Notes under the pieces: model-generated
What the model was told of the DNA's origin: nothing
What the model saw: the letters and a program-made list of their open reading frames with translations, nothing else
Databases searched by the model: none
Shown here: positions 3,794-33,098 of the stretch, one piece after another
Numbering within the stretch: the first letter of the stretch is position 1
Layout: each line of letters starts with the position of its first letter
NCBI RefSeq assembly: GCF_947493125.1
Contig: NZ_CANLQB010000010.1
Location: 62,001 to 126,000 of the forward strand
Direction: 5' to 3'
Length of the DNA stretch: 64,000 bases
DNA from: an uncultured Roseobacter sp.
GTDB taxonomy: Bacteria; Pseudomonadota; Alphaproteobacteria; Rhodobacterales; Rhodobacteraceae
Translations under genes and position numbers: made by a program

Positions 3794-4510
3794 ATGACCG
3801 ATACCCCTGTTGTATCCTTAAGCTTTTTTCGGTTTTCGCGGCCCGCAACACGGCTGTGGGCCTTTGCCATGATGGGCCTCGCGCGACGCGCCTTGCGGAC
3901 TGTGCCGGGCATTGGCTTTTGGAAACTCTGCGGGTCAGGCACAGGTGAAGGCTTCACCCCCCTGCCCAACACCAGCGTCTATGCCATTCTGGCCAGTTGG
4001 CAGGATGAGCACACCGCGCGCGCCCGGACGCAGGACTCGGCGATATTCCAAAGATATCGCGTCCAATCCAGCGAGGATTGGACTGTTTTTCTCGAAACAA
4101 CCTCTGCACGCGGGGCTTGGTCGGGCCACAGCCCGTTTCAGGCGACTGGGAAAGCTCCCGAAGGCCCGCTCGCGGCCCTGACACGGGCAACCATTAAGCC
4201 GGCCGTCGCGCTGAAATTCTGGCGCCGGGTGCCTGACATCAGCCTCATGGTCGGTAGTGATCGGAACGTCGCCTTTAAGATCGGCATTGGCGAGGTTCCG
4301 CTACTGCATCAGATTACCTTCTCCATCTGGCCTGACGCAGGCACCATGGCGCAATTTGCCCGCACCAATGGCCCCCACGCCGCGGCGATCCGTGCCGTGC
4401 GTGAAGGCAACTGGTTTTCGGAAGAGCTCTACGCCCGCTTTGCAATCCTCGGAGATGTTGGGACCTGGGGCGGACGCAGCCCACTCACCGCATTGGACCG
4501 CCCTGCATGA
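3794..4510 (+). CDS. crtA: Spheroidene monooxygenase CrtA
   Basis: Oxygen-dependent conversion of spheroidene to spheroidenone, the red keto-carotenoid of aerobic cells. The ATG start (MTDTPVVSLSFFRF) gives 238 residues, close to the family length. An in-frame TTG at 3773 lies immediately after PpsR operator 2 and is less likely. CrtA-like features include the N-terminal SFFRF, the WLMG-like aromatic patches and the KFGIGEVPL-type segment (here FKIGIGEVPLLHQ). The stop overlaps the bchI ATG (ATGA), so crtA-bchI-bchD-bchO forms one operon. Confidence 0.93.
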   Translation: MTDTPVVSLSFFRFSRPATRLWAFAMMGLARRALRTVPGIGFWKLCGSGTGEGFTPLPNTSVYAILASWQDEHTARARTQDSAIFQRYRVQSSEDWTVFLETTSARGAWSGHSPFQATGKAPEGPLAALTRATIKPAVALKFWRRVPDISLMVGSDRNVAFKIGIGEVPLLHQITFSIWPDAGTMAQFARTNGPHAAAIRAVREGNWFSEELYARFAILGDVGTWGGRSPLTALDRPA

Positions 4511-5511
4511 CCCAACCGTTCCCCTTCTCTGCCATCGTCGGCCAGGCCGACATGAAGCAAGCGATGATCTTGACCGCGGTTGATCCTGGTATCGGCGGTG
4601 TGCTGGTGTTTGGCGATCGTGGCACAGGGAAATCAACCGCCGTCCGCGCCTTGGCAGCCCTCCTGCCCCCGATCCGGATGGTCGAGAGCTGCCCGGTCAA
4701 CGCACCCAAGACCGCGGATTGCCCGGACTGGGCCGAACTGGGCTCAAAAAAGATCGTGACGCGGCCCACACCGGTCATCGATCTACCGCTTGGCGCCACC
4801 GAAGACCGGGTGGTCGGCGCACTCGATATCGAACGCGCCCTCACGCGTGGCGAAAAGGCCTTCGAGCCGGGCCTTCTTGCCCGCGCCAACCGCGGATATC
4901 TCTACATCGACGAGGTCAACCTGCTGGAGGATCACATCGTGGATCTTCTGCTCGATGTCGCGCAATCGGGTGAGAATGTCGTGGAACGCGAGGGGCTGTC
5001 GATCCGCCACCCTGCTCGTTTCGTGCTTGTCGGCTCCGGCAATCCAGAAGAAGGCGAGTTGCGCCCACAGCTGCTGGACCGGTTTGGCCTATCTGTTGAC
5101 GTGCGCTCGCCGAATGACGTGGCCGAGCGGGTCGAGGTGATCAAGCGACGGGACGCCTTCGAGAGCGATCACACCGCCTTTATGTCGCACTATACGGCCG
5201 AAGATGCAAAGGTGCGGGATGCCATCCTGAAAGCACGTAAACGTTTGGCCAAAATTGCCACACCCGACGCAATTCTGGAGGATTGTGCGACGCTCTGCAT
5301 TGCGCTTGGGTCTGATGGTCTGCGCGGCGAGTTGACCTTGTTGCGCGGTGCCCGCGCCCTGGCGGCCTATCACGGCAAACGCAAGGTCCACCGCGATCAC
5401 CTGCGCGCCGTCGCGCCCTCGGCCCTGTCGCACCGGCTGCGGCGCGATCCACTGGATGAGGCTGGCTCAACCACTCGGGTTGTACGGGTCGTGGAGGAGG
5501 TCCTGGGGTGA
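4507..5511 (+). CDS. bchI: Magnesium chelatase ATPase subunit I
   Basis: AAA+ ATPase subunit of Mg-chelatase, which drives Mg insertion into protoporphyrin IX with BchD and BchH. The protein has 334 residues. Walker A GDRGTGKST is at 36-44, the Walker B region YLYIDEVNLLEDH is at about 130-142, and a sensor/arginine-finger segment GSGNPEEGELRPQLLDRFG follows. The gene is coupled to crtA upstream and to bchD downstream by 4 bp overlaps. The length and all ATPase motifs are intact. Confidence 0.98.
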   Translation: MTQPFPFSAIVGQADMKQAMILTAVDPGIGGVLVFGDRGTGKSTAVRALAALLPPIRMVESCPVNAPKTADCPDWAELGSKKIVTRPTPVIDLPLGATEDRVVGALDIERALTRGEKAFEPGLLARANRGYLYIDEVNLLEDHIVDLLLDVAQSGENVVEREGLSIRHPARFVLVGSGNPEEGELRPQLLDRFGLSVDVRSPNDVAERVEVIKRRDAFESDHTAFMSHYTAEDAKVRDAILKARKRLAKIATPDAILEDCATLCIALGSDGLRGELTLLRGARALAAYHGKRKVHRDHLRAVAPSALSHRLRRDPLDEAGSTTRVVRVVEEVLG

Positions 5512-7163
5512 GCGAAGCAGAGAGCAGCTGGGCCCGCGCGGCCACCTGCCTGCGAATGCTGTTGTTTGCCCCGGATTATCTTGCAGGCGCTGTCATCCGA
5601 ATGCGTGCAGCGCCAGATCGAGATGCCATCACCGATGCGCTGCACCCCCTCGCCGCCCGGAAACTGCATACAACAATCTCCGATGAACAGCTTTTCGGCG
5701 GAATTGATCTTTCGGCGACTTTGGGAGCAAACCAACTTATTGAAAAAAAAGGGATATTTTTGGCGCGCTGCACTGCGCTCCTCTCTATGGCGGAGCGCTG
5801 CGGCCCTGAACTTGCTGCAAAGCTGGCCCATCAATTGGACGGCGACAGGGGCCATTGTCTGATTGCTCTGGATGAGGGCGCTGACCCCGAAGAAGCGGCA
5901 CCCCCTGCCCTGTCAGATCGTCTCCCCTTTCATATCGCACCGGACGGCCGGCGCCCCGTTGACTGGCGGGTTGTCCCCGCGGGGACACATGCCCGACATC
6001 CTCAGGACGTCACAGTAGCGCCAGACGATGCGATGGCTCTGGCGGTGCTCGCGACAACGTTTGGCATTGATAGCTTGCGCGCACCGCTTCTCGCACTGCG
6101 CGTCGCACGCACGCTCGCCGCGATTGATGACCGTGAGGCCGTTTCGCAGACCGATTTGGAGACAGCGGCAGGCCTTGTGTACCCCCATCGCGCAACACGT
6201 GTGCCTGAGGAGGCAGATAGCCCTGAGCAATCGACACCTCCAGATAGCTCCTCACACGATGACATGTCAGAGGGAAGTCAAACGAAGGACATTCCACACG
6301 GCGACATGTTGGTTGATGCGGTGCGGGCCCTTTTGCCAGATGACGTGTTAGCCCGACTTGTCCCCGCGGGGACAACGCGAGCCCTTGGCGGTAAGGGAGC
6401 GGGCCAGAAGCGCAAGGGAAACCGGCGGGGGCGCCCCCTGCCCTCCCGCCCGGGACGCCTCGATGGACGCAATCGCATCGACCTCGTCGCAACACTCCGC
6501 GCCGCTGCGCCCTGGCAGCCAATCCGCCGACGTGTACAACCAAAAGCAAGTGGGCTACTGATCCGCCCTTCGGACATCAGGGTCAAACGGTACGAAGACC
6601 GGTCTGATCGTGTGCTGATCTTTGCAGTGGACGCCTCGGGCTCCGCTGCCGTCGCGCGGCTAAATGAGGCCAAGGGCGCGGTTGAGCTTCTCTTGGCACA
6701 GGCCTATGCCGCCCGGGATCATGTGGCACTCATCTCCTTTCGCGGAATCGGTGCGGAACTTCTGCTCCCGCCCACACGCTCGCTGGTGCAAACCAAGCGC
6801 CGACTGGCAAACCTGCCGGGTGGTGGCGGAACTCCGTTGGCGATGGGCTTGCAGGAAGCGAGCGTCCTAGCGCTGCAAAGCAGATCGAAGGGGCTCACAC
6901 CGACCATCGTGGCACTGACGGACGGTCGCGCCAACATAGCCCTCGATGGCAGTGCCAATCGAGCCCAAGCCACAGACGATGCCGAGCGAATGGCCCAGCT
7001 TCTGCGACTGCAAGGCTTTCAGGCACTTCTGATCGACACCGGCGCCCGCCCTCAAGCCGCCTTGAGTGACCTGAGCCGTCACGCGGGCGCCCAGTACCTG
7101 GCACTGCCACGCGCGAACGCTCACGCGCTGACAGGCGCTGTGAGCGCCGCTCTCGAGGTCTAG
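5508..7163 (+). CDS. bchD: Magnesium chelatase subunit D
   Basis: Mg-chelatase subunit D, 551 residues, starting at a GTG that overlaps the bchI stop (GTGA). It has a degenerate N-terminal AAA domain, a Pro/acidic linker (about 235-330), and a C-terminal von Willebrand A domain with MIDAS motif DASGS starting at D375 and DGRANIAL near 470. The reading frame carries two copies of the 16 bp palindrome discussed under parS. Each is read as VPAGT, at residues 156-160 and 285-289. There is an A8 run at 5743-5750, unusual in this GC-rich gene. The frame is intact throughout. Confidence 0.96.
   Translation: MSEAESSWARAATCLRMLLFAPDYLAGAVIRMRAAPDRDAITDALHPLAARKLHTTISDEQLFGGIDLSATLGANQLIEKKGIFLARCTALLSMAERCGPELAAKLAHQLDGDRGHCLIALDEGADPEEAAPPALSDRLPFHIAPDGRRPVDWRVVPAGTHARHPQDVTVAPDDAMALAVLATTFGIDSLRAPLLALRVARTLAAIDDREAVSQTDLETAAGLVYPHRATRVPEEADSPEQSTPPDSSSHDDMSEGSQTKDIPHGDMLVDAVRALLPDDVLARLVPAGTTRALGGKGAGQKRKGNRRGRPLPSRPGRLDGRNRIDLVATLRAAAPWQPIRRRVQPKASGLLIRPSDIRVKRYEDRSDRVLIFAVDASGSAAVARLNEAKGAVELLLAQAYAARDHVALISFRGIGAELLLPPTRSLVQTKRRLANLPGGGGTPLAMGLQEASVLALQSRSKGLTPTIVALTDGRANIALDGSANRAQATDDAERMAQLLRLQGFQALLIDTGARPQAALSDLSRHAGAQYLALPRANAHALTGAVSAALEV
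5972..5987. promoter_or_regulatory. parS-like palindrome 1 (inside bchD)
   Basis: TGTCCCCGCGGGGACA is a perfect 16 bp palindrome. It is one of six copies in 4.4 kb around the parAB genes. Identity as a ParB-binding centromere site is inferred from copy number, perfect symmetry and location. Confidence 0.6.
6359..6374. promoter_or_regulatory. parS-like palindrome 2 (inside bchD)
   Basis: This is an identical 16 bp perfect palindrome, in the linker of bchD and read as VPAGT (residues 285-289). See palindrome 1 for the interpretation. Confidence 0.6.
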
Positions 7164-7166
7164 GCG

Positions 7167-8030
7167 GTGCGCTGGCCACCACCGCAAGACTGGCCCCACG
7201 CAGACATCTCGCGCCAAGTACTGGCATCCCCACATCGCTGGCATGTACAAGAGACGGGCGACGGACCTCTCATACTTCTGCTGCACGGCGCCGGTGGCAG
7301 CACCCATTCGCTTCGAGGGTTGATCACGCAACTCGGTCGGGCCCGCCGGGTGGTCGCCATTGATCTCCCAGGGCAGGGCTTCACTCAACTCGGTGCCCGC
7401 CATCGCTGTGGCCTGCACACAATGGCTGCCGACATCGAAAAGCTCTGCCAACAGGAAGGCTGGGTGCCAGACGCCATCGTCGGACATTCGGCCGGAACCG
7501 CACTGGCGCTAAAACTGTCAGAAACTCTGCTGTCCCCGCGGGGACAGCCGCCTCAAGTTGTTGGGATCAACCCGGCACTCGACACCTTTGACGGCATCGC
7601 TGGCGTGCTATTCCCAGCCATCGCCAAGATGCTGGCTGCCATTCCATTCAGCGCCAGCGTCTTTTCCGCCACCGCGTCAAACCCAGCGCGAATTCAGGCT
7701 CTAATACGCGGTACAGGGTCTGATTTGGACGACCATGGGCTGCGCTGCTATCAACGTCTCGTCGCAGATCGAGATCATGTCGACGGCACCTTGTTGATGA
7801 TGGCTCAATGGTCGCTCGACGCGCTGGTGCGGTCGCTGCCACGCCTGCAAGCCCAAGCGCTCTTCATCGTGGGCAGTCGTGATGGCGCAGTTCCGCCACG
7901 CGTTGCCCGAGACGCGGCCAAGCACATGCCGAAGGCTTCGGTCATTGAGATAGAGGGGTTTGGACATCTCGTGCACGAAGAGGTCCCGGAATTGGTCGCC
8001 CGACACATCCTGGAGTTCCTGGACAGCTAA
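7167..8030 (+). CDS. bchO: Alpha/beta hydrolase BchO
   Basis: BchO, an alpha/beta-fold hydrolase always found with bchID in proteobacterial PGCs; its exact role in Mg-chelatase function is not settled. The protein has 287 residues and starts at GTG (MRWPPPQDWPHADIS), 3 bp after the bchD stop. The oxyanion strand LLLHGAGGSTHS is at about 37-48 and the nucleophile elbow GHSAG at about 109-113. The His region GFGHLVHEE is near 267-275. A parS-like palindrome lies inside the gene, read as LSPRGQ (122-127). The stop codon overlaps the parB stop on the other strand by 4 bp. Confidence 0.92.
   Translation: MRWPPPQDWPHADISRQVLASPHRWHVQETGDGPLILLLHGAGGSTHSLRGLITQLGRARRVVAIDLPGQGFTQLGARHRCGLHTMAADIEKLCQQEGWVPDAIVGHSAGTALALKLSETLLSPRGQPPQVVGINPALDTFDGIAGVLFPAIAKMLAAIPFSASVFSATASNPARIQALIRGTGSDLDDHGLRCYQRLVADRDHVDGTLLMMAQWSLDALVRSLPRLQAQALFIVGSRDGAVPPRVARDAAKHMPKASVIEIEGFGHLVHEEVPELVARHILEFLDS
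7531..7546. promoter_or_regulatory. parS-like palindrome 3 (inside bchO)
   Basis: This is a perfect copy of TGTCCCCGCGGGGACA in a different reading frame from the bchD copies (it encodes LSPRGQ, not VPAGT). This shows that DNA sequence, not peptide, is conserved between copies. Confidence 0.6.
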
Positions 8031-9085
8031 CCTTTCAGGTGGTCAAGAAAGGCCCGGGCCGCCGCCTCAAGACGGCGCGGCTCGATAGCGCCAAAATCAT
8101 GATCGAGCGCTACTTCAAACTTGCCCGCTGAAGCCGTGCATTTGGCAACACCCTCTGGGCGGTTAAGCTTGATCGTGGTCTTCGCGGAGGTTTTAGGGGC
8201 AGGGGGCTTAGCCTTTTTTGACTTCACCTGCCCGCCGCTCACCGCACTCCGCAGAAGCGACAATTCCAATGCGGCATCCCTGTCCGGCTGACTGTTCAGA
8301 ACCGCCCGCACCTGACCGGCAAATCGGTCGTTCTCTTCGAGCAGCTTCACAAGGCTCAGCCCGGTAGCGCGCGGAATGCTCTCGGGGTACTTCAGATCTT
8401 TCCCGAGAACGGTCAGCAGATGCGCAAAATGCCGAATGTAACTTCGTTTCTGCCGGCCAGCAGAGGCGAAGAGCGCCTCGATCGCTGCCGCAACGCTTTG
8501 CTCACTGCGATTTGCATATGACATCGCAAGCTGCGCCATCTCCGCAAAGGAGATATCACGACGCACCAGGTTCTCATCAACCATCCTGCGATAGAGATGA
8601 CCCAGCTGCGCACCCCGGGCCTGCAACGTCGCCGGGATCTGAGCAAACCGGGGATCGGATGTCTCGGTCAGCAGCTCCCGATAGGCGCTCAGGCGCCGGA
8701 ATCCCTGGATCAGCTCGTACCCATCGGCGACCTCTTCCACATGGATGGGGTTCGACAGACCCACAGCCTTGATCGAGGCCTTCAATTCATCAAGGTCCGG
8801 ATCCCGATCAGCCGCGCGGTCGCGTATCAGCTTGGTGGTCCTGATCTGATCCAGCGCAACCAGCCCAACAATCTGGCCATTCTTCTTCAGCGCCACATAT
8901 TCGTGCGCCAGCCGATCATTCTCGGCCCGGATCTCGGCCTCGGCTGCCTGACGCGCCCCGAGCGCCTCGGCATTCTCGGAGATCGCCGCCGCCATGGGGC
9001 CACGCCGGGCAGGGGCCGTCTCTTCCGTCCCCGCGGGGACAGCACTCTCGTCAAAGTCGATGTCAAAGACGCGTCGCTTGCTCAT
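8027..9085 (-). CDS. parB: Plasmid partition protein ParB
   Basis: ParB/Spo0J-family centromere-binding protein, 352 residues, for plasmid segregation. The ParB N-terminal domain runs from about 70 to 145 (GLVALDQIRTTKLIRDR, then ELIQGFRRLSAYREL). A helix-turn-helix region lies at about 175-260, followed by a Lys/Pro-rich linker and a C-terminal dimerisation-like segment. A parS-like palindrome in the 5' end is read as VPAGT at 16-20. The ATG overlaps the parA stop by 4 bp. Its stop overlaps the bchO stop tail to tail, so the replicon is joined seamlessly to the PGC. Confidence 0.93.
   Translation of the reverse strand: MSKRRVFDIDFDESAVPAGTEETAPARRGPMAAAISENAEALGARQAAEAEIRAENDRLAHEYVALKKNGQIVGLVALDQIRTTKLIRDRAADRDPDLDELKASIKAVGLSNPIHVEEVADGYELIQGFRRLSAYRELLTETSDPRFAQIPATLQARGAQLGHLYRRMVDENLVRRDISFAEMAQLAMSYANRSEQSVAAAIEALFASAGRQKRSYIRHFAHLLTVLGKDLKYPESIPRATGLSLVKLLEENDRFAGQVRAVLNSQPDRDAALELSLLRSAVSGGQVKSKKAKPPAPKTSAKTTIKLNRPEGVAKCTASAGKFEVALDHDFGAIEPRRLEAAARAFLDHLKG
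9027..9040. promoter_or_regulatory. parS-like palindrome 4 (inside parB)
   Basis: This is a 14 bp perfect palindrome GTCCCCGCGGGGAC; the outermost base pair of the 16 bp form is changed on one side. It lies 45 bp into parB. Confidence 0.55.
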
Positions 9086-10386
9086 GCCTCATCCTCCAGC
9101 TGGTCCCAGGCCGCGCAGAGATGTTTGTGAAACTCGCCATAGGCCTGATCGAAACTCGCCCGTGCCCGGCGCCAGGTCTCGCGCGTCATGTCGCGATAGT
9201 CGATCTCGTAGATCGACGACAGGAAGCGGCCGGACTGCTCGACCGCGCGGGTCATCTCGATCGGATGTTCGGTCACCCTGTCCTCCCAAACCTTCACGAA
9301 GGCCTGCTGCATCGCACGGTGCAGATCGTTGTTGGGCTCAAACCGCGTGAGCAGAAACCGCACATCCAGAAACGCCTTTGGCAGGTTCATTGTCCCCGCG
9401 GGGACAAGGCCACTGAACCGGCTCAAATCCTCCAGTGCTTCGGCCAACTGCCCGATGAAAGAGGTCGTACTGTCATACTCCCAGTAGCCGGGGCCCGATG
9501 GGATGTAGAGCATATCGGCAGCGAAGACCGCGTTCATCGACTGGTATCCGATGGCAGGCGGGCAGTCGAACAGGATGAGGTCATAGGCGTCGGCTGGCAA
9601 CTGATCGAGGAACCGCGAGACGGCCGCAAAGAACGACCACTCAGGGTTCAGATGCCGGTACTGCGCCGAGGCAAACTCGACAAAGGCTGCATTGGCACAG
9701 GACGGAACGATGTCGATGGTCGGCCAATTGGTCGGCTTGATGAAGTCCGCAGCACGTAGATCGGCAAGGCCCATGTCAGTGATGCTGCTGGGCAGGCGGC
9801 GGCGGGGTAGGGTGGCACCGCTCTCCGCGCCCTGCGAGGCGCGGTTCATCCGCTCGGTCTCACTGGCCAGATCGCGCGCCATGATGCCCCAAACGGTGTA
9901 TTCCTCCGCCACGTCGCTCAGCCCCATGGAATGGCTAAGCGTGGCCTGCGGGTCAAAGTCGACGGCCAGCACTCTATAGCCGTCAAGCGCCGCCGCATGA
10001 GCGAAATGGAGTGCAACGGTAGACTTCCCGGCCCCCCCTTTGAAATTCGCAATGGCAGCCCGCATGGCGCGCTTGCCTGTCGGACGATACGGCATCAGCG
10101 AGCGACGATTGACCTTCAGACGGCGCCGCATCTCGTTGATCTCTTCGAGGCTGTACCAATGTTGGCGCCCATCCGCCTCGACCGTGCCCTGGGGCAGGGT
10201 GGGGTCAGCGGCTAGCCGTCCGCGCATGGTGGACTGGTTGACCTTGAAGATCAGCTCTGCCACCTCCCAGCTCGAAAACCGGCGCAGGGTCTTCTCATTC
10301 TGTGGGCTATAGGTTTGCTGGCGAATGAAGCCCTGCATCTTGAGGGATTGCGCTTGAAGCTGTGCAAGATCGCTGTGTGTGTACAT
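9082..10386 (-). CDS. parA: Plasmid partition ATPase ParA
   Basis: Large ParA (type Ia) ATPase, 434 residues. An N-terminal region of about 100 residues with a helix-turn-helix/MerR-like look (SSWEVAELIFKVNQSTMRGRL, 38-58) is followed by the deviant Walker A FKGGAGKST at 115-123. The Walker A' segment VLAVDFDPQATLS follows. The Walker B-like stretch LILFDCPPAIG lies further on. Type Ia proteins usually repress their own operon through the N-terminal domain; that is expected here but not shown. Palindrome 5 is read as VPAGT at 328-332. The start is 20 bp downstream of palindrome 6, and no strong Shine-Dalgarno is visible. Confidence 0.94.
   Translation of the reverse strand: MYTHSDLAQLQAQSLKMQGFIRQQTYSPQNEKTLRRFSSWEVAELIFKVNQSTMRGRLAADPTLPQGTVEADGRQHWYSLEEINEMRRRLKVNRRSLMPYRPTGKRAMRAAIANFKGGAGKSTVALHFAHAAALDGYRVLAVDFDPQATLSHSMGLSDVAEEYTVWGIMARDLASETERMNRASQGAESGATLPRRRLPSSITDMGLADLRAADFIKPTNWPTIDIVPSCANAAFVEFASAQYRHLNPEWSFFAAVSRFLDQLPADAYDLILFDCPPAIGYQSMNAVFAADMLYIPSGPGYWEYDSTTSFIGQLAEALEDLSRFSGLVPAGTMNLPKAFLDVRFLLTRFEPNNDLHRAMQQAFVKVWEDRVTEHPIEMTRAVEQSGRFLSSIYEIDYRDMTRETWRRARASFDQAYGEFHKHLCAAWDQLEDEA
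9391..9406. promoter_or_regulatory. parS-like palindrome 5 (inside parA)
   Basis: This is a perfect 16 bp copy of TGTCCCCGCGGGGACA near the 3' end of parA. Confidence 0.6.
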
Positions 10387-10405
10387 GACGCGCCTGTTAT
10401 TGAGT

Positions 10406-10419
10406 GTCCCCGCGGGGAC
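10406..10419. promoter_or_regulatory. parS-like palindrome 6 (parA leader)
   Basis: GTCCCCGCGGGGAC, extended by one T on the left, is the only non-coding copy. It sits directly upstream of the parA start codon, where a ParB or ParA complex could both act as centromere and control parAB transcription. Function is inferred. Confidence 0.6.
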
Positions 10420-10597
10420 GCTAATTCTTGTTTTTTACAGATTTACGCTGATTTGGAGAAAAAGGCAAAACTGAATATGATGGGCACAGCAGATTTCCGC
10501 AGGACGCTTCAAACATGACCATGCTGGGCCAAAACGACATCCAAGCGATTCTCTTGCCACTGTCAGAACTGCACGAAGATGGGATGGCTAGAACGAG

Positions 10598-10899: not shown

Positions 10900-11580
10900 A
10901 TGTTTTCTACCCGACCTGTCGGTCGCGGCGCATCTGCACGCAAGTACGATCTGCTCACCGCGCTTGGCACTTATGCGCTGTCACAGAGCAAGCATGATCA
11001 GCGCAGGGCATTGCGGCTCATGACACTTATTACAGCGCGCTATAACTGGGCACGCGACGAACTGGCCGTGGGGCAGCGCGAGATCGCGCAGCTGTGGTCC
11101 GTCGATGAACGAACCGTCAAACGTGAGATGGCCATGTTTCGCGCCAAGGGCTGGCTCGTTGTCAAGCGCCAGGGTGCACGCGGGCGGGTCACGCAATACG
11201 GGTTGGGTATCGACACGCTGCTGGAGGACACCTCAACCACCTGGGGCTGCGTCGGCCCTGATTTCGAGCTGCGCATGGGGCAGGGGACCGCAGAGCCTGA
11301 TGTGGTGCCCTTGCCCGTGCGCGGGGTGGTTGCGCCCCCAGACGTCTCTTCGGGCGCGGAGTGGTCGCTTGCACAGGCGCTGCTGCACGCAGAGGACCCC
11401 GGGACTTATGCGAGCTGGATCGCGGCGCTTACGCGAGCGGAGAGGGCAGGGGGCCGTCTGACGTTGCGGGCGCCCTCACGCTTCCATGCAGCCTATGTGC
11501 AGACCCATCTGGCCGGGCGCCTTCTGACTGCCTGCCAGGACGTGGACAGTGAGGTGTCGGAACTCAGGATCGTGACCTGA
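10900..11580 (+). CDS. DnaA-like plasmid replication initiator
   Basis: The protein has 226 residues. The N-terminal half resembles plasmid replication proteins with a winged-helix segment (GQREIAQLWSVDERTVKREM, about 66-85, then AKGWLVVKRQGARGR). The C-terminal part, about 150-215, resembles domain I of DnaA (ALLHAEDPGTYASWIAAL, then LTLRAPSRFHAAYVQTHL). There is no AAA+ ATPase domain, so it is not a chromosomal DnaA. This matches the 'DnaA-like' replicase class of Rhodobacterales plasmids, which is also found divergent from parAB. A weak Shine-Dalgarno (GAGG) precedes the ATG. It is the likely initiator of this replicon. Confidence 0.85.
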   Translation: MFSTRPVGRGASARKYDLLTALGTYALSQSKHDQRRALRLMTLITARYNWARDELAVGQREIAQLWSVDERTVKREMAMFRAKGWLVVKRQGARGRVTQYGLGIDTLLEDTSTTWGCVGPDFELRMGQGTAEPDVVPLPVRGVVAPPDVSSGAEWSLAQALLHAEDPGTYASWIAALTRAERAGGRLTLRAPSRFHAAYVQTHLAGRLLTACQDVDSEVSELRIVT

Positions 11581-12227: not shown

Positions 12228-12641
12228 TCAGCTCTGCGGGCCGACCGAGGCGAGATAGGCGGCGACGTCTTCACTGCCCTTTCTCAGCTTGAAGGCCATG
12301 CGCGACTTAGCCGAGGAGTCGTCAAGAAACGTGCGCAGGAAGGCGCGCGGGTCCTTGGTGTACTCGGCCAGGTTTGCTTCGTCCCAGACCAGACCGGCTT
12401 CGCCCGCGGCGACCAGGTCATCGCCATAGCGGAAGTCGGCGGTGCCCGCCTGACGCCCGATCACACCATAGAGGTTGGGGCCTGTCTTGCCGCCCTTAAC
12501 AATTTCCGTGCCGTCATCGGCGACGATCATGTGGCAGGACTTACACTTGTTGAATTCCTTTTCACCCGCCGCGGCATCGCCTTCGGCGAGGGCCGGCGTC
12601 GCGAAGCTGAGGGCGAGGATGGCTGCAAAGGTACGTGTCAT
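12228..12641 (-). CDS. cycA: Soluble cytochrome c2
   Basis: Periplasmic class I c-type cytochrome, 137 residues with a signal peptide of about 19 residues (ending ATPALA). The haem-binding CKSCH motif is at 33-37 and the likely axial Met115 is in the segment KSRMAFKLRK. TGPNLYGVIGRQAG is typical of cytochrome c2. It probably carries electrons from the bc1 complex to the photosynthetic reaction centre. Its place next to hemA in the PGC matches Rhodobacterales. A c551-like name is possible, but the c2 pattern fits better. Confidence 0.88.
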   Translation of the reverse strand: MTRTFAAILALSFATPALAEGDAAAGEKEFNKCKSCHMIVADDGTEIVKGGKTGPNLYGVIGRQAGTADFRYGDDLVAAGEAGLVWDEANLAEYTKDPRAFLRTFLDDSSAKSRMAFKLRKGSEDVAAYLASVGPQS

Positions 12642-31815: not shown

Positions 31816-33098
31816 CGCTGAGCTGGCTGGCCATCATCCGCCTTGGGTTCGTTCAGATGTGCCTGGGCGCAATTGTGGTGCTAACCACCTCGACGCTGAA
31901 CCGGCTGATGGTGGTGGAGCTGGCCTTGCCCGCGGTGCTGCCGGGGCTGCTGGTGGCGCTGCACTACGGCATTCAGATCACCCGGCCCAACTGGGGGTTT
32001 CTGTCCGATACCGGCGGCAACCGAACGCGGTGGATCATCCTCGGTATGGCGGCGTTGGCTGCCGGCGCGATGCTGGCCGCCTACGGAGTCGTTGTGCTGG
32101 AGAGCCGGTTCGGTCTGGGGCTTGGCATTTCGGTTGCTGCCTACGCGCTGATCGGGTTGGGGGTAGGGGCCTCGGGCACATCCCTGTTGGCCCTTTTGGC
32201 CACAGCCACAGCCCCCCCGCGGCGCGCGGCGGCTGCAACGATCACCTGGCTGATGATGATTGCTGGCATTGCGATCACCGCAGGCGTCGTGGGCGCGCAG
32301 TTGGATCCCTATTCGACGGGCCTGTTGCTGCGCATCGTTGCTTGTGTGACAGGTGGCGCACTTCTGCTGACCTGCTTTGCTGTCTGGGGCATTGAGGCAC
32401 GCGTGGATGCTGCCCCGGAGGCCGCGCCCATGCCGTTTCGCGAAGGGCTTGCCGAGATCTGGGCCGAGCGCAGGGCGCGCAACTTCACCTTTTTCGTGTT
32501 CCTGTCCATGACCGCCTACTTCATGCAGGAGCTGATCCTCGAACCCTATGCGGGTTTGGTCTTCGGCTTCACACCTGGGCAATCGACCTCGCTGGCTGGC
32601 GCACAGAACGGCGGTGTCTTCATGGGTATGGTTGTTGTCGGCATCATGTGCACCGGGTTCAAGCTGGGCAGCCTGCGCGCCTGGGTGATCGGTGGATGCC
32701 TCGGGTCGGCGGCGATGCTGGTCGCGCTGACGCTGCTTGGGCAAATCGGTGCGGTCGCGCTGTTGGTGCCCGCGGTGGTTGGCCTCGGATTTTTTAACGG
32801 TGTCTTCGCGGTTGCGGCTATCGGATCGATGATGGCACTGGCAGGGCAGGGGCGGCAGGCGCGCGAGGGCACGCGCATGGGTCTCTGGGGTGCGGCGCAA
32901 GCCATGGCGGCCGGCTTTGGTGGTCTGACGGGGGCCGCGCTGGTCGATGTGATGCGTGCGGGCGTTGGGCAGGACGCTGCGGCCTTTGGAACGGTTTTCT
33001 TGATTGAAGCGGGGCTCTTCGTGGCCGCCGCCCTTATGGCACTGCGGGTCATGGACCGGCCCGGCGTGCCACACCGAAATCTGGTCCCGGGAGAATGA
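31812..33098 (+). CDS. PucC-family MFS transporter of the bchG-bchP interval
   Basis: Bacteriochlorophyll-delivery-branch MFS protein, 428 residues (the 'ORF428/427' between bchG and bchP in Rhodobacter), with about 12 helices. Shared with LhaA are TSTLNRLMVVELALPAVLPG, the LILEPYAGLVFGFTPG segment, and GLWGAAQAMAAGFGG. It probably handles pigment delivery or LH assembly; the exact substrate is unknown. It is coupled to bchG by ATGA. Confidence 0.92.
   Translation: MTLSWLAIIRLGFVQMCLGAIVVLTTSTLNRLMVVELALPAVLPGLLVALHYGIQITRPNWGFLSDTGGNRTRWIILGMAALAAGAMLAAYGVVVLESRFGLGLGISVAAYALIGLGVGASGTSLLALLATATAPPRRAAAATITWLMMIAGIAITAGVVGAQLDPYSTGLLLRIVACVTGGALLLTCFAVWGIEARVDAAPEAAPMPFREGLAEIWAERRARNFTFFVFLSMTAYFMQELILEPYAGLVFGFTPGQSTSLAGAQNGGVFMGMVVVGIMCTGFKLGSLRAWVIGGCLGSAAMLVALTLLGQIGAVALLVPAVVGLGFFNGVFAVAAIGSMMALAGQGRQAREGTRMGLWGAAQAMAAGFGGLTGAALVDVMRAGVGQDAAAFGTVFLIEAGLFVAAALMALRVMDRPGVPHRNLVPGE

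Follow-up and report, generated by a model that had tools for sequence, protein, structure and literature searches.

In chromosomal ParABS systems (Spo0J/ParB), the parS consensus is a 16-bp palindrome with TGT...ACA ends, and Petersen et al. 2011 are said to have named conserved palindromes in the DnaA-like module as probable centromeric anchors. In the part of the article considered here, a DnaA-like I module occupies one conserved place of plasmid-borne photosynthesis gene clusters (PGCs), and moves of PGCs from plasmid to chromosome were proposed from a tree (Brinkmann 2018, PMC6052148); the strings 'palindrom', 'parAB' and 'centromer' were not found in that part of the text. For RepABC replicons, the sections considered describe parS inside open reading frames (ORFs), e.g., cas3, casA, and casB, which are of several origins and proposed to be selected there (PMC9040568). 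Here we report six palindromes that lie in and beside parA and parB and reach into bchO and bchD in 64,000 nucleotides of an uncultured Roseobacter sp. (contig NZ_CANLQB010000010.1, positions 62,001 to 126,000; this whole stretch is called the window). Judged from sequence comparisons, we consider it very probable that they serve as parS for the DnaA-like I replicon carrying this PGC. The window resembles the DnaA-like I photosynthesis replicons, as far as they are portrayed in those parts of PMC6052148, in its initiator type, its parAB, and the place between bchO and cycA, but its sites reach into bchO and bchD and leave relics. With the intra-ORF parS of RepABC replicons, as presented in the sections considered (PMC9040568), it shares predicted centromere sites in coding sequence near partition genes; replicon type and palindrome are different, the hosts are bacteriochlorophyll synthesis genes, and the loss of partition genes and the decay of sites are compared in the present analysis. 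Like chromosomal ParABS, it combines a ParA/ParB pair with palindromic sites of 16 bp that have TGT...ACA ends, whereas the core is different and its ParB is only distantly related to Spo0J.

The core palindrome GTCCCCGCGGGGAC occurs six times in the window, five of them in coding sequence. The 16-mer TGTCCCCGCGGGGACA is found without mismatch at 5972, 6359, 7531, and 9391, and two copies (9026-9041 and 10405-10420) have one end base altered, the 14-bp core being kept at 9027 and 10406. Two sites lie in bchD (5508..7163, + strand), the gene for Mg-chelatase subunit D with its AAA lid and VWA domains: site 1 (5972..5987) spans codons 156-160 and site 2 (6359..6374) codons 285-289, both encoding VPAGT. 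Site 3 (7531..7546) is found in bchO (7167..8030, + strand; an alpha/beta hydrolase by domain search), where the DNA is read in another frame as LSPRGQ. On the − strand, parB (8027..9085), encoding the predicted site-binding protein, contains site 4 (9026..9041) close to the N-terminus, and parA (9082..10386), encoding the partition ATPase, contains site 5 (9391..9406), each again encoding VPAGT; site 6 (10405..10420) stands in the parA leader. All sites, to which no strand is assigned, come from a window scan, combined with the reading frame for sites 1 to 3 and with the ORFs for sites 4 and 5. The initial annotation had given the same positions, hosts, and frames, and had found no further copy in the 64 kb; a scan allowing up to three mismatches returned these six matches alone, and 100 dinucleotide shuffles of the window gave a mean of 0.48 and a maximum of 3. 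Counted over the 4.83-Mb assembly (32 contigs), the perfect core is present six times, always at the par/bch locus of the window, and a reversed control core zero times. With up to two mismatches there was no excess genome-wide (28 places versus 62 for the reversed control) and therefore only exact or nearly exact matches are informative. Given the codon use of 19 window ORFs, p is 1.3e-3 for VPAGT in these five codons and 1.1e-3 for SPRGQ. The leader site also scores as a terminator-like stem-loop (10403-10422, + strand) and may have an additional role in parAB autoregulation.

Our comparison of PGCs included the best 80 of 518 bchD loci in the genome collection and 15 stretches from Roseobacter genomes, and a tree of 88 PGCs was built from BchI, CrtA, CrtI, and CrtB, i.e., without bchD and bchO. 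Twelve of 100 loci stand outside this tree, either with fewer than three of the four genes (L029, L037, and L047), with none of them (L034, L057, L059, L068, and L093), or as duplicates (L125, L130, L133, and L134). A perfect core in bchD or bchO was found in 22 of the 23 PGCs with adjacent parAB versus one of the 65 without, so core and parAB agree in 86 of 88 rows (22 with both, 64 with neither). Over the pairings of ten independent contrasts, eight to ten favour the tie between core and parAB and none is opposed (median p 0.004). Among the loci outside the tree, L029 and L057 possess parAB together with perfect cores, and L034 a parB fragment together with a variant palindrome in both bchD and bchO; at four PGC loci with a ParA just 25-28% identical near bchO (L063, L064, L079, and L086), the sites were not found. 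The same picture emerges within the genus Roseobacter: 17 of 19 genomes encode BchD, and the 13 of these that hold a cognate ParB (74-100% identity) all have at least three perfect cores genome-wide. The four others have ParBs at most 36% identical and no perfect core in bchD or bchO (G015 has one elsewhere), and the two genomes without BchD have no perfect core.

That selection acts on the DNA, as the initial annotation had argued from the other frame used in BchO and from the unrelated proteins involved, is borne out by silent positions. Among 12 Roseobacter rows with parAB, fourfold sites in the site codons are identical in 871 of 893 comparisons, against a fraction of 0.448 elsewhere in bchD and bchO, and between the window and its sister without parAB (L120) they agree in one of five. 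The pentapeptide does recur in several proteins, which might suggest that VPAGT and SPRGQ are retained for the sake of the protein; the same DNA is nonetheless read in three frames in unrelated proteins, and its codons are nearly fixed with parAB and different without, so that this explanation is already contradicted and scarcely credible. Altogether, sites occur at ten alignment columns of BchD (in three frames) and three of BchO, and, when conservation is measured in PGCs without parAB, the host stretch falls in the lower 34% at 12 of these 13 positions, with only one BchO site of Nereida, L032, lying higher (0.59); the BchD sites are mostly in poorly conserved stretches. As to whether the site residues are insertions or substitutions, a question raised with the initial annotation, both are seen: in the plasmid clade, BchO has four extra residues at the site, which outside rows such as L051, L027, and L045 lack (other outside rows vary in length there), and at least one BchD site arose by substitution at unchanged length. 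The multiple copies and the local length changes of some, such as these four BchO residues, would fit palindromic repeats that had spread as mobile miniature elements and have no selected role in bchD and bchO. The rest of this genome, however, is devoid of perfect copies, an extra R. litoralis site sits where site-less relatives have equal length, and decay does not proceed at an equal rate in lineages with parAB. In sister pairs, moreover, site codons are far better kept than the rest with parAB and no better once parAB is gone; such elements are thus a very improbable explanation.

The association extends to other plasmids. The closest ParBs on named plasmids belong to the photosynthesis plasmids of Roseobacter ponti, R. 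litoralis, Thalassococcus sp. S3, and Tateyamaria omphalii, whose whole records contain 6, 4, 7, and 10 perfect cores, respectively, all but one around parA, parB, bchO, and bchD. The exception is a lone perfect core at 32079 of the Thalassococcus plasmid (L153), about 27 kb from the par cluster. We also examined the surroundings of parAB on ten plasmids where no bch genes adjoin it: eight have a perfect core by parAB (1 to 16 copies per stretch examined), and a core also lies within parA on eight of the ten. These counts back the centromere reading of the initial annotation, with ParB binding as a prediction, since the sites go with parAB even on DnaA-like I plasmids without adjacent bch genes. 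In L137 and L143, 12 and 6 sites, respectively, occupy the noncoding spacer between parB and the next gene, and one more lies inside that next coding sequence (OmpA-family) in each. Sites inside ORFs beside partition genes are thus found at more than one position, as in the RepABC precedent. The spacer behind parB is absent from the window and from the R. litoralis, R. ponti, and Thalassococcus plasmids; on the T. omphalii plasmid it measures about 90 bp and holds two sites. Because no spacer remains between parB and bchO, the array would have been pushed into bchO and bchD. On a Parasedimentitalea plasmid, parB is directly followed by another gene whose annotation includes a ParB N-terminal domain (L139:9304-10197).

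Variant palindromes point to ParB as the candidate reader. In Cognatishimia (L030), TGTTCCCCGCGGGGAACA is present at four places matching bchD, bchO, parB, and the parA leader, and parA has one standard core with 1 mismatch; since the variant is common to several sites of one replicon, one trans-acting reader is to be expected. All 20 aligned ParBs from standard-core loci have the motif RQKR unchanged, and all three ParBs from loci with other palindromes differ (RQRR, YQKR, and KMKK). In a structure model of the window's ParB, helices are formed by residues 198-205 and 211-230, and RQKR (211-214) opens the second helix of a putative helix-turn-helix. The ParB N-terminal part matched Spo0J and ParB structures in a profile search (Spo0J 1vz0, E 1.8e-6; E 0.0019 by single sequence), with sulfiredoxin, which shares the ParB N-terminal fold, as top match. 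Two plasmids have other candidate sites: L141 (Paracoccus) has two copies near parAB of a symmetric variant, TTCCCCGCGGGGAA, and L142 (Pseudosulfitobacter), whose ParB is 34% identical, two copies of another palindrome, TAACCCATGGGTTA; both may reflect other specificities. The sites could alternatively bind the DnaA-like initiator or another replicon protein and serve copy control instead of partition, for they are restricted to the par-rep neighbourhood in this genome, one, in the parA leader, has parA on one side and rep on the other, and in L136 one is found within the initiator coding sequence itself. Yet the arrays run away from rep, behind parB, other palindromes accompany changes in the ParB motif with which the presumed recognition helix begins, and parS of RepABC relatives behaves alike in the sections considered (PMC9040568). 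We therefore hold the initiator, or another replicon protein, to be an improbable reader, and ParB the preferred one.

Our phylogeny analyses suggest that some PGCs have lost parAB. One tree group (Shimodaira-Hasegawa-like approximate likelihood-ratio test, SH-aLRT, 99) unites 20 PGCs with parAB and 8 without, and three further rows with parAB fall outside it (L030, L032, and L087). Topologies keeping the 20 apart from the 8 (p 1.4e-5), or the 12 Roseobacter rows with parAB apart from their four without (p 3.1e-5), were rejected. The rows without parAB are spread through this group, with L120 standing as sister of the window, L121 of R. litoralis, L122 of L017, and L028 of L022. If the root lies outside the 28-row group, a placement favoured by midpoint rooting, this suggests up to eight separate losses of parAB. 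In the four Roseobacter PGCs without parAB, two of which sit on 4.1- and 4.5-Mb contigs, 68 to 635 bp separate bchO from the cycA behind it, and the par-rep module is missing. A different situation is seen in L123 (G004:C10:981000-999000), where parAB-rep is intact in a PGC that has six perfect sites and lies on a contig of 1.07 Mb; a stretch 66 kb before it aligns as one block with the chromosomes of two relatives, a stretch 59 kb after it matches one of these partly, and it is perhaps an integrated plasmid with the module still intact or a chimeric assembly.

What became of the sites in the eight nested PGCs without parAB? In one they are near-intact, in three degraded, in one marginal, and in three erased. 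Taking for each row the best of seven codon shifts, the mismatches at the three ancestral positions are 1, 0, and 1 in L024; 3, 2, and 4 in L121; 6, 5, and 4 in L120; 6, 5, and 5 in L122; and 5, 6, and 7 in L129, and no trace of a palindrome was detected at these positions in L025, L026, and L028. None of 62 outside rows has a mean mismatch as low as L024, L121, L120, or L122, and one of 62 is as low as L129. The degraded copies might be chance resemblance or convergence instead of fossils, as L129 is marginal, L025, L026, and L028 show nothing, and without L121 two bchD positions rank 19th and 11th of 1658 (the third position is 1st of 857). On the other side, in the unshifted ranking of the four Roseobacter rows, the three positions come 5th and 1st of 1658 and 1st of 854 (lowest mismatch), compared with percentiles of 0.24-0.28 in the 62 outside rows, and L024 is nearly perfect. 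L121, in addition, has a degraded fourth site (VPTRT, 5 mismatches) in a register otherwise used by R. litoralis (L006) and L131 only; L120, L122, L129, L005, and the window have unrelated residues at that position, and in five less closely related rows a site is offset from it by one base and falls in another frame. Chance resemblance or convergence is therefore unlikely, and we favour fossils. The extra BchO residues are retained without the palindrome in L120, L121, L122, L129, and L028 and are lacking in L025 and L026.

The initial annotation had treated the same palindromes in PGCs without this parAB as evidence against its inference. They do occur there, near-intact once and degraded in others, and all such PGCs are nested inside the plasmid clade; the sites are therefore read as relics, which fit the inference and in turn lend support to the published insourcing hypothesis. 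The L024 genome encodes only a distant ParB (35%), and its PGC seems to be opened at the module place: on a 584-kb contig, bchO reaches its end at 496.25 kb and cycA is located at 563.4-563.8 kb, with matches to window genes running inwards from either end (496-504 and 541-563 kb). Outside both PGC ends lies a 114-bp exact direct repeat (L155 and L159; G019:C5 492986 and 566542), with IS21-like ORFs, as judged by ORF reading, beside it on one side. It is tempting to hypothesize that this layout would be left by integration of a circle opened at the replication module. We also tried the relics as a test of a single plasmid origin of all PGCs and rejected this use: the three positions are unremarkable in the 62 outside rows without parAB (the percentiles given above), as are bchD 195, 367, and 429 and bchO 142 in the sister group of L030 and L032 (percentiles 0.12-0.30). 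The relics therefore inform on moves inside the 28-row clade but say nothing about older ones.

Several observations weigh against the parS reading as a whole. L030 has parAB with the variant instead of a perfect core, and L024 has a perfect core in bchD or bchO without parAB, with one intact site and two sites of 1 mismatch still kept. In four of the 65 rows counted as lacking parAB (L033, L041, L048, and L056), the contig does not reach past bchO, and in L094 it stops 618 bp after that gene; absence of parAB is therefore not established in these five. R. litoralis has two further sites with one mismatch despite its parAB. The covariation of RQKR consists of three cases, one of which (L142) is 34% identical overall, and P0118, a ParB 56% identical to the window's, has RQRR as in L030. 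The ParB model is of moderate confidence (predicted local distance difference test, pLDDT, 76, rising to about 90 for residues 181-280; predicted template modelling score, pTM, 0.42), the ParB_N score of 25.0 bits is just below the Pfam curated cutoff of 26.3, and some of the 13 positions (194/195 and 202/215) may be one site divided by the alignment. Finally, perfect cores exist off the PGC, five in G017 (L147-L151) and two on the R. ponti chromosome (L145 and L146). Several of these cores, taken over both genomes, fall within VPAGT or MSPRGQ, in genes read as trmD and lpd among others, and those of G017 comprise four full 16-mers versus one other match of TGTSSSSGCSSSSACA. They may be due to chance from codon preference or may be extra ParB sites.

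The genes around the sites are those expected of such a replicon. The run begins with bchI (4507..5511, + strand, from ORFs and gene order), which has no site, followed by bchD and bchO; parB-parA is convergent with bchO and overlaps its end. Divergent from parAB is a DnaA-like replication initiator (10900..11580, + strand; PF11638 DnaA_N, E 5.2e-6, 26.5 bits versus a cutoff of 24.6), and further on comes a run that we name cycA-hemA-puhE-acsF. The gene order shows that cycA (12228..12641, − strand) adjoins bchO where the par-rep module is missing, in the four Roseobacter PGCs. The features of ParABS are present, i.e., a Walker-type ParA ATPase (PF13614, E 5.4e-24), a ParB_N domain (PF02195, E 2e-5, annotated for 120 listed homologues including the window's ParB), and several palindromes clustered by parAB in the window and its relatives. 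So are those of DnaA-like I replicons, with a DnaA-like initiator beside divergent parAB and the module between bchO and cycA within the PGC. The place of the module was compared with the R. ponti, R. litoralis, Thalassococcus, and T. omphalii plasmids, all four circular; the window's contig (144,484 bases) is a putative plasmid. From ParB similarity and the parts of PMC6052148 considered, we infer that the replicon would belong to compatibility group I.

How could a partition system come to write into photosynthesis genes? One ParB dimer would recognise the 16-bp palindrome through its helix-turn-helix, load, and spread, and about six sites over 4.4 kb would build one partition complex to be moved by ParA into the daughter cells. 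Where other DnaA-like I plasmids have a noncoding spacer behind parB, it can accommodate extra sites; here such sites would have been acquired within bchO and bchD, for the most part where conservation is poor, with VPAGT and SPRGQ imposed on the proteins. In a cluster left without the par-rep module the constraint would be lifted, and for that reason the sites would mutate away as fossils. As the sites lie within the bchI-D-O run, loaded and spreading ParB would cover these genes. It may then tune or silence bacteriochlorophyll synthesis and couple pigment to segregation, the sites being selected for both, an extension that we consider rather unlikely. In the literature text searched, the 16-mer and the 14-mer were not found and the 12-mer appeared in eight listed papers of unrelated subject, and the listed titles and abstracts on photosynthesis plasmids together with ParB, parS, palindromes, or centromeres include neither sites in bch genes nor their decay. 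That parS can reside in ORFs is a known idea, at least in the sections considered (PMC9040568).

If the parS reading is true, the machinery for plasmid inheritance prescribes residues of enzymes that serve an unrelated pathway, and the comparison of sister lineages that have or lack ParB offers a natural experiment to separate cause from coincidence. The eroded sites would then provide a sequence-level marker, beyond tree topology alone, for the question of how frequently PGCs moved from plasmid to chromosome. Such moves were proposed from a published tree (PMC6052148), and the relics would allow the recent ones to be tested one by one.

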